From assembly GCA_030681555.1 (NCBI GenBank), contig JAUXRW010000160.1, positions 1 through 42,159 on the forward strand: DNA of 42,159 nucleotides. Direction: 5' to 3'. This document shows positions 10,210 to 37,315 of this stretch, piece after piece. Within the stretch, counting starts at the first letter, position 1. The number at the start of each line of letters is the position of its first letter. This stretch comes from Acidimicrobiales bacterium. GTDB taxonomy: Bacteria > Actinomycetota > Acidimicrobiia > Acidimicrobiales > VFJN01. The translations under genes were made by a program, and so were the position numbers. The notes beneath the pieces are model-generated. The model worked only from the letters and a program-made list of their open reading frames with translations, did no database searches and was not told where the DNA came from.

Positions 10210-11479
10210 CGTCGTCCTCGAACCGCACCGCCCGCGTCGAAGGGCGTCCGTGCGCGAACCCTGACGCCGCACCCGTCAACCACGCCTCGAAGCACTCGGT
10301 GAGCCGGTCGACGTCGAACGCCGCTGCCGTGCGGAGGCCGCGGCGCACGAGGTCGGCCCGCAGCTCCGGGTCGGCGGCCATGCGCTGCACTGCCGCGGCC
10401 AGCGAGAGCGGATCGCCCGCCTGGAACCGGAGGCAATTCACCTCGTCGAGGAGGAACTCGCCGGACCCGCCGACCCCCGTCGCCACCACCGGTGTCGCGC
10501 AGGCCATCGCCTCGAGCGGCACCAGGCCGAAGGGCTCCTCCCACTCGCTCGGGAACACGAACACGTCGGCGTCCCGGTACCGCTCCACCAGCTCTTCGCG
10601 GGAAACGGTCTGGAATCTCACCCGGTGCCCCACCCCGAGCGCCTCCGCGACGGCAGCGAGCCGATCCCTCTCCGCCGGGTCGCCGGTGCCCTGCACCTCG
10701 AGCGTGACGGCCTCGTCGAGGTGGAGCAGCGCCCGCACCACGGTCTCGATGCCCTTCCGCGGGTCGTAGCGACCGACGTAGAGGAGCCGCCCCCGCCACT
10801 TGCGTCGGCCCGGGACGGGCTCGTCCTCGCGCGGCGTGAAGAGGCGCCCGTCGATCCCGCAGTAGACGATCGTCGTGTCGGCCAGCGTGGAGGGCGACAT
10901 CTCCTCGGCCCGGCGGCGGGTCACCTCGCTGATGAAGCACAGCGTGCCGGTGGCGCCGACGTCGGGCACCAGGGTGGGCACCCGCAGGACGGCGGCCGCG
11001 GCCCGTGCCACCGGGGCCGGCACCCGACCGACCACGCGGCTCCACGCGTCGAGCTTGGGGGCGTAGCTCAGCCAGTCGTCGAAGATGGCGTAGACGATCG
11101 GCACGCCGCGAGCCGCGATCGTGGTGATCAGGCCGAGCGACAGCGCACCCATCTGCCAGACGAACACGACGTCGGGTCGGACGTCGTCGAGCGCTTGCCG
11201 CAGCGCCCGCTGGCTGCGCCGCTCCCGTCGCCAGCGGGTGACGAGGCCGGGGGCGTACACCTGCTCGTCGCGGAACCACGCAGCGAGATCGCGGCGCACC
11301 GGGACGGTGGCAGTGCGCTCGCCGGCCGGGTCCGCCACGCCCAGTCGGCGCAGATCGCTGGTGAGCACAGTCACGTCGTGACCGCGGTCCACGAGGCGCT
11401 CCGCCACGTCCCGGCAGGACACCTCGTAGCCCCCGACGTGGTGGGGCGGGTAGTGCAACCCGAGCACGAGCACCCTCAC
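10196..11479 (-). CDS. GT4-family glycosyltransferase
   Basis: The 427-residue GT-B enzyme opens VRVLVLGLHYPPHHVGGYEV, containing the HHVGG acceptor-domain loop typical of GT4. It continues with FISEVTRRRAEEM, VYCGIDGRLFTP at the linker, LLYVGRYDPRKG at the donor strand, and EEPFGLVPLEAMACATPVVAT with Glu315 and Glu323 as the E-x7-E pair. GTG 11479 overlaps the preceding stop (GTGA) and its end overlaps the next start by 14 nt. It is third in a minus-strand run of four transferases (12453, 11476, 10196, 9232). Confidence 0.9.
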   Translation of the reverse strand: MRVLVLGLHYPPHHVGGYEVSCRDVAERLVDRGHDVTVLTSDLRRLGVADPAGERTATVPVRRDLAAWFRDEQVYAPGLVTRWRRERRSQRALRQALDDVRPDVVFVWQMGALSLGLITTIAARGVPIVYAIFDDWLSYAPKLDAWSRVVGRVPAPVARAAAAVLRVPTLVPDVGATGTLCFISEVTRRRAEEMSPSTLADTTIVYCGIDGRLFTPREDEPVPGRRKWRGRLLYVGRYDPRKGIETVVRALLHLDEAVTLEVQGTGDPAERDRLAAVAEALGVGHRVRFQTVSREELVERYRDADVFVFPSEWEEPFGLVPLEAMACATPVVATGVGGSGEFLLDEVNCLRFQAGDPLSLAAAVQRMAADPELRADLVRRGLRTAAAFDVDRLTECFEAWLTGAASGFAHGRPSTRAVRFEDDDVRA

Positions 11480-28254: not shown

Positions 28255-28319
28255 CGCGGCGACCGACTGCGCCTCGACCACTCCGATGGCGGCCCGGAGC
28301 ACGCCGCAATTGCAGCCAA

Positions 28320-28325
28320 TACAGT
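28320..28325 (+). promoter_or_regulatory. -10 hexamer TACAGT, leaderless start
   Basis: TANNNT 8 nt before ATG 28334. It selects this start over 28286 and 28361. Confidence 0.55.
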
Positions 28326-28333
28326 GCCCGGAC

Positions 28334-28741
28334 ATGGCCCCGAACCGCACAAGGACACCGATGTCCGATGAGCACAAGGCAGCCCTCGCGGAAGGCCGCA
28401 ATCAAGGCCGGTCCGTCCGCCAATACCTCGAAGCACTCGACCGTCATCGGCCCAGGCGGGGGCGCAAGCGCACCAAGGACTCGATGGAGAAGCGGCTCGC
28501 CCGCATCGACGCCGAGATGGTGTCCGCGGACCCGCTCCGGCGCCTGCAGCTCATCCAGGAGCGCCTCGACCTGACCGCCGAGCTCGAGGCCCTCGACACC
28601 AAGGTCGACCTCACCGAGCTCGAGCAGAGCTTCATCCGCGCCGCCGGCCCCTACAGCTCCCGGAAGGGCATCTCCTACGCCGCCTGGCGCGAGCTCGGCG
28701 TCGAACCCGCCGTCCTCAAGCGCGCCGGCATCTCTCGGTAG
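28334..28741 (+). CDS. Small conserved actinobacterial protein of unknown function
   Basis: The 135-residue, highly charged protein has no signal peptide or membrane segment. It contains [22 protein letters not shown], then a basic RPRRGRKRT patch resembling an AT-hook. A helical stretch ([31 protein letters not shown]) may form a coiled coil. The C-terminal block [18 protein letters not shown] followed by VLKRAGISR looks helix-turn-helix-like. I recognise this layout from uncharacterised actinobacterial proteins; no function is known to me. It is transcribed divergently from purL and ends exactly where a hairpin-rich repeat starts. Nucleic-acid binding is a guess from charge. Confidence 0.8.
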
Positions 28742-28890
28742 TCGGCTCGGAGAGCTTCGCTCTCCTCCCCGAGCATTGTTTGGTGCGCCCTTTCGGGCGC
28801 CCTCGTCTCTGCTCCGGGGTCGGCGGAGCCGCTCCTGCGCGGTGTGGGGGCTCCGGCAAGCCTCTGCCCCCACACCCCCGCCACCCCGCC
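28742..28890 (+). repeat. 3' multi-hairpin repeat, copy 1
   Basis: Begins at the base after TAG 28739-28741. It holds hairpins 28749-28765 (7-bp stem, TTC loop), 28785-28800 (GCGCCC/GGGCGC with a TTTC loop) and 28842-28875 (9-bp GTGTGGGGG/CCCCCACAC). Read in gene direction it aligns with the copies downstream of the 29049 gene remnant and of purA. There is no coding signal and no U-tract. Confidence 0.7.
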
Positions 28891-28909
28891 ACTCGCGCTC
28901 GTTGCGCGC

Positions 28910-29048
28910 GCGGGGTGGGGTTCGGGGGAGTGTGAGGGGGAACTCCCCCTCACGGTGCGAGCGGGCCGGCTCTGCCGGACCCGAGCAGAGATGAGCGCGC
29001 CCGCAAGGGCGCACCGCTGAGCTAGGTCGAGAGGCTCCGCTTCGAGAC
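28910..29048 (-). repeat. 3' multi-hairpin repeat, copy 2
   Basis: Read on the minus strand, it starts directly after TAG 29051-29049. Stems include GCGCCC/GGGCGC at 28997-29012 (GCAA loop), CCGGC/GCCGG at 28966-28978 and a perfect 9-bp GTGAGGGGG/CCCCCTCAC at 28932-28953. It matches copy 3 block by block (for example CTCAG, GCTCGGG, ACTCCCCC). Confidence 0.72.
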
Positions 29049-30670
29049 CTACGACCAGGCGTGGCGCTCTGGGGGCGTGAGGCCTGCCGGCTGGCGGGCG
29101 ACGACCTCGCGGTAGACGGCGCCGAGGGTGTCGAAGAGCCAGGCGTCGGCGATCTCGCGAACGCCTTCGTCGGAGAGGTGGAGGCCGTCCGGGCGGATGC
29201 GGGTGGGGATCGTACCGTCCGGGCCGGCGAGGCGGCTCGCATACGGCCAAAGCGCAGCCAGGGGCGAGCGCGACACTCGAGCGCTGTTGATCTCGTTGCG
29301 CCGGGCCGTGCGCGGCGGGTCGTTCAGGGTGATGGGCCCCTCTCCCGGGACCGGGCTACCGATGATCTGGCTGAACACCTCGAGGTCCCATTGAGGTGTG
29401 GGGACCGTCGCCCACAGGACCGGGATGCCGTTTTCGGCCAGCGTGGCGACGGCCGTTTCCAGGGCCGGGCCGAGGCGCGCGTCGATGACGGCTCGCCGAT
29501 GTGGTGGACCCCTTCGAGGTCGTCGTACTCCCAGTCGGCCAGCTGGGAGGAGCCGACGAACACGACGATGGCGTCGGCGCCGAGGTCCCGCGCGGTCTCC
29601 ATGGCGTCACGGAACAGCGTCTCGCAGCGGTTCGGTCGGAACTGGTAGCCCTCCCGGATCGTGAACTGCACCCCGTGCAGCACGCCGCAGCCGGGACGGC
29701 TGACGGTGACGGCCTGGAGCCGTCCGGTCTCGACGCCCCACTCTTCGAGCCCACCCCCCGATGGCCGCCGCCGTCGAGTCGCCAACGACGACGACGCGAG
29801 GCGCCCGGACGGGTGGCAGCGTCGTGGTGGTCGTCCGGCGAGCCGCGGGCACGGTGGCCCCCGAGGTCGCGCCCGCCGGCGCGGTGGCGGAGACGTCGGG
29901 CGCCAGCGGCGTCGTCGTCGTGACGGTGGTGGTGGATTTGGGGTCGAGCTCGCGGAAGACCAGCTGCTGCTCGTCCCCGCTGCGGCCGACGGGCACCGCC
30001 ACCAGCAGGACCGCCGCCAGGCCACCGGCCAGGGCGATCGGGCCGAGTCGACCCGGGAGGGCCACGCCGGTTCGGATGGGCCGCTCGATGAAGCGGTACG
30101 ACAGCCAGGCCATCGTGATGGTCGGGATCAGCCGCAGCGCCAGCAGCCAGAGGCCCCACAAACCCGACCCGTTCCTCGCTGAGGAGCACATAGAGCGGGA
30201 AGTGGTACAGGTACCCGCCGTAGCTGATCTTGCCGAGGCCGACGAGGGGCCGGAAGGAGAGCAGGCGCCGGAATAGGTCGCCCTCCACGGCGGCGAACAC
30301 CATCACTGACGACACGATCGAGAACGCGGCCAAGCCGCCGTCGTAGATGCCCGGGCGCTGGTGCGGCACGGTGAGGAACAGCGTGGCGCTGGCGGCGGGG
30401 CCGACGAACCCGCCGATGTCCGCGAGGCGGGCCCGGCGCACCCAGAAGGCGGGGATCCGCACCTGCCCCGTGCCGCGGTGCTCCGCGAGCACCAGGCTGG
30501 TGATGAGGAACCCGGACAGCGTGAAGAAGATCGACACGCCCAGGAACCCCCCCTTGGCCCAGCCGATCCGGGCGTGGAAGCAGAGGATGGCGATGAGGGC
30601 GGCCCCTCGGAGGCCGTCGAGGGGCCGGCCAGTACGGCAGGCGCGCCTCTCGGATGGGCTGGACCGTGAT
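29049..30670 (-). pseudogene. Decayed OafA-type acyltransferase with SGNH domain
   Basis: Pieces of one membrane O-acyltransferase/SGNH protein appear in order but in changing frames. LDGLRGAALIAILCFHARIGWAKGG, SIFFTLSGFLITSLVLAEH and FWVRRAR come first, then LGKISYGGYLYHFPLYVL, AWLSYRFIERPIRTG, VVVVGDSTAAAIGG (SGNH Ser block), AIVVFVGSSQLADWEYDD, and DGLHLSDEG (SGNH Asp-His block) before TAG. Shifts fall near 30622 (GGGG), 30161 (AAA on plus), 29757 (C6) and 29495, each a single base, mostly in short runs. About 150 residues after FWVRRAR are missing in frame, including the HxWSLAVEEQFY core. The gene is non-functional unless the assembly is wrong. It abuts purQ. Confidence 0.82.
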
Positions 30671-35879: not shown

Positions 35880-36022
35880 GAAGGGCCGTTGGGGAGGGTT
35901 CCGGGGGGAGTGGGAGGGGGGAACCCCCCCCTCCCCAGCGAGCGGCCGGGCTTGCCCGGCCCGAGCCGCAACGAGCCGCCCGCAGGGCGCGCACTCAGCT
36001 CGTGTAAGGAGCTCCGCTCCGA
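35880..36022 (-). repeat. 3' multi-hairpin repeat, copy 3 (after purA)
   Basis: Read on the minus strand, it begins at the base after the purA TGA. Stems: GGAG/CTCC near 36008-36020, CGCCC/GGGCG at 35977-35989, a perfect 8-bp GGCCGGGC/GCCCGGCC at 35944-35961, and GGGAGGGGG/CCCCCTCCC within 35912-35935. Block order matches copy 2. Several paired positions differ between copies in ways that keep pairing. Confidence 0.72.

Positions 36023-37315
<1,293 letters not shown>

Follow-up and report, generated by a model that had tools for sequence, protein, structure and literature searches.

A large inverted repeat between convergent genes belongs to a dispersed, structured and probably mobile repeat family at gene ends in Acidimicrobiales

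What is a 307-bp inverted repeat doing between the ends of two convergent genes? The repeat lies in a 42,159-nucleotide stretch of an Acidimicrobiales bacterium genome (assembly GCA_030681555.1, contig JAUXRW010000160.1), which we refer to as the window. The original prediction, made from the sequence alone, described two facing elements, one per gene, and suggested that they block read-through both ways. We find it likely that the repeat is a facing pair of units from a non-autonomous mobile repeat family, dispersed and structured, that inserts at gene ends.

Results

The inverted repeat and its flanking genes

Reading the sequence directly confirmed the 307-bp inverted repeat at positions 28,742 to 29,048. 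It occupies the gap between two convergent frames, the left one ending with its stop codon at 28,741 and the right one with a stop codon at 29,051 to 29,049. Folding of the 307 nucleotides as RNA yielded -217.4 kcal/mol (z = -10.3), and none of 100 dinucleotide shuffles was as good. The best ungapped arms span 36 nt and are 89% complementary (28,782 to 28,817 and 28,980 to 29,015); over their whole length, the arms share just 65 to 66% identity.

The left unit, W_L, runs from 28,742 to 28,893 on the plus strand and comprises hairpins A (28,749 to 28,765), B (28,785 to 28,800), C (28,821 to 28,831) and D (28,841 to 28,876), followed by a C-rich tail. Facing it on the minus strand, W_R spans 28,912 to 29,051, with hairpin A at 29,049 to 29,025, hairpins B and C, hairpin D at 28,953 to 28,932, and again a C-rich tail. 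W_L and W_R match the covariance model described below with 81.7 and 136.6 bits, respectively, and both copies were in its training alignment. They are joined at approximately 28,894 to 28,911 by a short GC palindrome, to which no strand was assigned. This palindrome corresponds to what had been called an Arg-rich GC core separating the halves; we found no protein-coding evidence for it. Each unit begins at the stop codon of one of the two convergent frames, which agrees with the proposal of one element per gene.

The left flanking gene (28,286 to 28,741, plus strand) codes for a 151-amino-acid protein, and its TAG stop codon (28,739 to 28,741) directly abuts W_L. The protein had no Pfam match above the cut-off and no PHROG or NCBIfam match. 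A second copy, 49% identical, was seen on contig C137 of the same genome. The right flanking gene (29,049 to 30,650, minus strand) is acyltransferase/SGNH-like and broken over several frames, so the suspected pseudogene was indeed present; its extent and motifs were read by eye, and a Pfam search returned only a sub-threshold piece of Acyl_transf_3. Its stop codon, TAG, overlaps the first hairpin of W_R. Relatives with a single copy and the same boundaries had been named as evidence against two facing elements. The same-family relatives lack the repeat: in all five genomes with a purQ match (six searched), the homologues of purQ and of the left ORF converge directly, and little separates them. 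No match to the broken acyltransferase was found near purQ in those five genomes, and this gene may have arrived together with the composite.

A dispersed family in the source genome and its relatives

The inverted repeat is one member of a family and not a unique structure. A third unit lies in the same window at 35,892 to 36,028 (minus strand, 84.4 bits), between co-directional genes that we take, from their translations, to be purA and purD; the unit's first bases contain the purA stop codon. When the source genome (G000) was searched by BLAST with the 307 bp, 43 matches were obtained at E ≤ 1. A covariance model, R1, built from 14 units (alignment A1), found 41 places in this genome at E ≤ 10, of which 34 scored E < 0.02, including the training copies, which match by construction; the E-values of this model and of the next are rough. 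R1 had no match in three same-genus and three same-family genomes. For a second model, R2, 62 core sites were found, 13 were removed by eye, and 48 of the remaining 49 were aligned. R2 detected 23 copies in the source genome, 23 in G164 (21 of which were fetched, in 20 stretches), 13 in G188, 15 in G023 and 10 in G035, and none in the same-genus genomes G001, G002 and G003. Four contigs of the source genome (C115, C106, C108 and C153) end close to a unit (L005, L013, L052 and L060), so the true copy number may be higher.

The same genome holds a sister composite. A facing pair on contig C56 matches the 307 bp at 83% over positions 22 to 290 (BLAST). W_L is 83% identical to C56b. W_R shares 81% identity with C56a and 83% with the unit on C62, and the two composites have partly the same join. 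Because each arm is closer to the matching C56 arm than to its own partner, the facing pair was copied as a composite. Together with the partly kept join, these identities indicate that the composite predates its last copying and is no fresh local duplication; a local duplication of one arm was rejected on the same ground, each arm being nearer to another locus than to its partner.

Anatomy and compensated fold of the units

A unit measures about 75 to 150 bp and contains up to four hairpin modules, in the order A, an optional B and a core hairpin C that carries an A bulge; the long forms add a GC hairpin, D, and end in a C-rich tail. In most copies, hairpin A starts 0 to 5 nt past a stop codon. 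Its stems differ completely between copies, and a 2x2 internal loop, TC/TC, recurs; this loop was scored in 18 of the 28 source-genome units listed, by a criterion that missed some (e.g., L053, judged by eye). Core hairpin C consists of GACCGGC-NNA-GCCGG-A-TC above a lower stem that varies with compensation. In other families of the order, the stems of the units are different, but hairpins A and C and the place after the stop codon are the same. In the units read, no U-tract follows the GC hairpin, the tail being C-rich and free of T-runs.

We counted two-sided changes in the lower stem of C in two sets. In set A4, which holds one site per pattern locus from L141 to L170 (30 sites, unfiltered by eye and counted separately), 37 cells showed such changes, compared to 18.3 in shuffles, and none of 500 shuffles reached the observed number. 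Pairing was far lower in slid controls of this alignment. The 48 sites of R2 gave 90 cells, compared to 39.3 in shuffles. Pairs that never vary, and are therefore uninformative, numbered 7 in the 30-site set and 5 in the 48-site set. A copy that follows a secA-like gene, common to G164 and G188, shows one compensated pair of differences between them in the lower stem. Little came from RNAalifold run on A1. A search of the window stretch and nine loci against Rfam yielded no match above the gathering score, and membership in a known Rfam family was rejected on that basis; the one sub-threshold match, to Actino-pnp, lies partly over the rpsG coding sequence.

Placement at stop codons

In the source genome, 26 of 30 units have a same-strand stop codon within -20 to +40 of their start, compared to 1,297 of 20,000 random positions (6.5%; Fisher P = 3e-27). 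Open frames counted in this test if they had coding-like GC and a length of 240 nt or more, and one of the 26 units, L044, rests on a weak frame. In relatives, 17 of the 23 R1 matches listed lie at a stop codon, and an 18th, L076, lies at +41. The units are thus sense oriented at gene ends, and they were found at convergent ends and also at operon-internal junctions. The exceptions in the source genome are L036, L047, L060 and L061. L036 (1,501 to 1,648) is a full unit placed antisense directly upstream of a gene start read as aroC, L047 and L060 each form the second unit of a tandem, and no upstream stop codon precedes the plus side of L061. The C56 pair, which sits between two co-directional genes, also departs from the rule. 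At L149 and L169, the units seemingly follow tRNA genes, whose ends were recognized by eye, and not protein genes.

Filled and empty junctions

Units occur inside operons at rpsS-rplV, rplN-rplX, cysD-cysN and sdhA-sdhB. Except where a Pfam result is cited, gene names at junctions were read by eye from translations. In most of the 27 genomes with a match, rplN and rplX overlap or nearly abut. Four filled junctions were read, with gaps of 103 nt in G000, 127 nt in G035, 106 nt in G188 and 178 nt in G108. The junction is empty in G001 to G003, of the same genus as G000 (11-nt gap), and in G164, which shares its genus with G188 and has a 9-nt gap. In all four filled genomes TGATG precedes the unit, and the source-genome copy has TGATG on its right as well, which makes a 5-bp direct repeat. 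Such a full flanking repeat is clear at one site only; elsewhere 2 to 3 bases are shared, in part because a start codon has to be there.

Similar pairs were seen at other junctions between the source genome and G003, against which blastn was used and tblastx was uninformative. At cysD-cysN, G003 has TGATGG with overlapping genes and the source genome has TGATGG-unit-GTGGCT; at rpsS-rplV, the gap is 2 nt in G003 and filled in the source genome; at tuf-rpsJ, G003 has a shorter spacer in place of the unit. Of the 13 G188 copies, at least 6 have a counterpart at the same genes in G164, and in some of these the stem has changed in a compensated way. Orthologous junctions were cleanly filled or empty, and we saw no transposase, no excision and no movement of a unit.

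Bridging frames in operons

At rplN-rplX in G000, G035 and G188 (and in G108, by eye), the ATG of TGATG opens a frame that passes through the unit and stops on the start of the next gene. We defined a bridge as a frame of at least 20 codons that runs from the upstream stop codon and ends within -3 to +5 of the next start. Among the 29 junctions listed, 20 have no Shine-Dalgarno-like motif, so that their starts are uncertain, and most of these are without a bridge. Eight of the 9 junctions with a Shine-Dalgarno-supported next start have one, compared to 2 of 159 gene pairs in stretches of the source genome and G003 (P = 3e-11). The ninth, sdhA-sdhB (L215), does not, nor does rpsG-fusA in G164 (L203). 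The rpsS-rplV junction of the source genome, outside the nine, is bridged too. The source-genome sense copies with a bridging frame, at rplN-rplX, rpsS-rplV and cysD-cysN, are short forms with hairpins A and C only. The reading frame relative to hairpin A varies between copies, which argues against a conserved peptide and suggests that the bridge itself is what is kept. At rpsM-rpsK of the source genome (L119, 16,032 to 16,185), one of the two control positives, we observed hairpins resembling an antisense unit, with a bridging frame.

Distribution across the order and phylum

The core pattern, GACCGGCNNAGCCGGATC, was found in 36 of 397 genomes of the order, belonging to 29 of 203 genera, and 20 of the 36 had at least two matches. 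The reversed pattern matched 6 of the same 397 genomes, none twice. In a phylum sample of 396 genomes, nine had one match each besides G000 and G025, which belong to the order; judged by these matches, the family core is rare outside the order. A scan of 84,980 genomes with a hairpin-A pattern returned 13 single matches. Most of the 7 inspected look like coding sequence, and L097 may be a lone hairpin A beside a gene end. The same pattern had no match in viral contigs. A literature search, with thin coverage of subscription journals, found no description of this repeat.

Discussion

We propose that the units are mobile but non-autonomous and that they insert at the ends of genes, with TGATG stop/start overlaps as notable targets. 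Their folded hairpins, as RNA or single-stranded DNA, would be the likely feature recognized by an enzyme supplied in trans. Within operons, surviving copies would retain stop-start coupling via a mini-cistron, and expression of the next gene would thereby be preserved. At transcript ends, the long forms would act at most as 3'-end stabilizers or weak terminators. Long forms at convergent ends may thus serve as terminators, a role that does not extend to the whole family. A bolder version, which we regard as doubtful, would make the units order-wide structured mobile mini-cistrons: the enzyme would recognize the core hairpin, TGATG insertions in ribosomal-protein operons would leave a translated bridge of 30 to 45 codons, and the hairpins would tune the ratio of neighboring proteins, so that core operons were repeatedly rewired.

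The main competitor holds that the units are selected 3'-end regulatory RNAs (terminators or mRNA 3' stabilizers), with the likeness between copies due to shared function plus gene conversion, and the facing pair a bidirectional terminator. The tight sense placement at stop codons, the compensatory changes, seen even between orthologous copies of G164 and G188, the GC hairpin and C-rich tail that end the long forms, and the copies after tRNA-like 3' ends (L149 and L169, by eye) all fit such a role. Bidirectional intrinsic terminators are likewise hairpins between convergent genes. Against this, the present units have no U-tract, dozens of copies share conserved primary sequence, and copies lie inside operons (rpsS-rplV, rplN-rplX and cysD-cysN) with bridging mini-ORFs. 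Their occurrence is also patchy, with absence from three congeners and clean empty sites. We therefore consider this explanation unlikely. The operon-internal copies led us to reject a strict terminator pair, and, together with the C56 composite between co-directional genes, they speak against the two-way block of the original prediction as a general explanation. That the signal is an artefact of chance or composition in a GC-rich genome, where hairpins form easily, or a mere local inverted duplication, has a negligible chance given the z score, the 34 related copies, their absence from same-genus genomes and the greater similarity of the arms to another locus than between themselves; the artefact was rejected on the copies and the arms.

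REP/BIME elements are linked to RAYT transposases, and mobile units of that type, moved by a RAYT (Y1) enzyme, would account for short dispersed palindromic hairpins with a bulge at gene 3' ends, for BIME-like facing pairs and for the lack of a coding gene of their own. RepRanger includes an Acidimicrobium genome among its REP counts and notes that ribosomes can be stalled by REPs located no more than 15 nt from a stop codon (PMC12306157). The likeness extends to palindromes that sit at the 3' ends of genes, alone or face to face, in some cases no more than 15 nt from the stop codon. The Y1 transposase domain, PF01797, was missing in 17 of the 19 genomes tested, among them the copy-rich G000, G164, G188, G023 and G035. 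With 0 Y1 transposases in the source genome and a presence in 2 of 19 genomes, RAYT/REP membership was rejected; the larger, modular unit of 75 to 150 bp, its strong sense orientation and the operon mini-ORFs also differ from REP/BIME, and this origin seems highly improbable. ERIC, BOX and MITE-type elements are non-autonomous, intergenic, modular and hairpin-forming, about 100 to 150 bp long, with no coding gene. The present units resemble them in all these traits of size and build, but we identified no terminal inverted repeats like those of a known insertion sequence, and the units strictly abut stop codons.

The preferred reading, of mobile units at gene ends, has its closest parallel elsewhere. 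By analogy, the units probably work like MIRUs, the mycobacterial interspersed repetitive units, as non-autonomous mobile elements, and not as a two-way terminator pair. MIRUs reportedly go back to Supply et al. in 1997. One account describes them as short mycobacterial repeats, dispersed and apparently mobile, which have inserted between genes and contain an ORF whose stop/start overlap couples it to the neighboring gene, so that this gene stays expressed (PMC12548453). The present family belongs to the same phylum and likewise consists of short, dispersed repeats, oriented like the genes beside them (26 of 30 units versus 6.5% of random positions) and with an ORF coupled to its neighbors by stop/start overlap (8 of 9 junctions versus 2 of 159, not at L215 or L203). 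It differs from MIRUs, which are likened here by description and not by sequence, in having as many as four hairpin modules, a core hairpin that is conserved, and compensatory changes. Also unlike the MIRUs so described, it is patchy through another order and lies at convergent or terminal gene ends too, singly or as facing composites, where a mini-ORF is not expected.

If this reading is true, a non-mycobacterial lineage has evolved the MIRU solution, insertion at coupled junctions with a mini-ORF that keeps the coupling, joined to a strongly conserved RNA or DNA fold. Filled and empty rplN-rplX, rpsS-rplV and cysD-cysN junctions would then be natural experiments on coupling and operon stoichiometry. 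Such repeats may be mistaken for terminators or non-coding RNAs. Another palindromic repeat, of the GCGTTCCTGCGCTC...GAGCGCAGGAACGC type, was observed in several copies between two units on contig C137, at about 11,030 to 11,160 (L037, 1,644 to 1,775).
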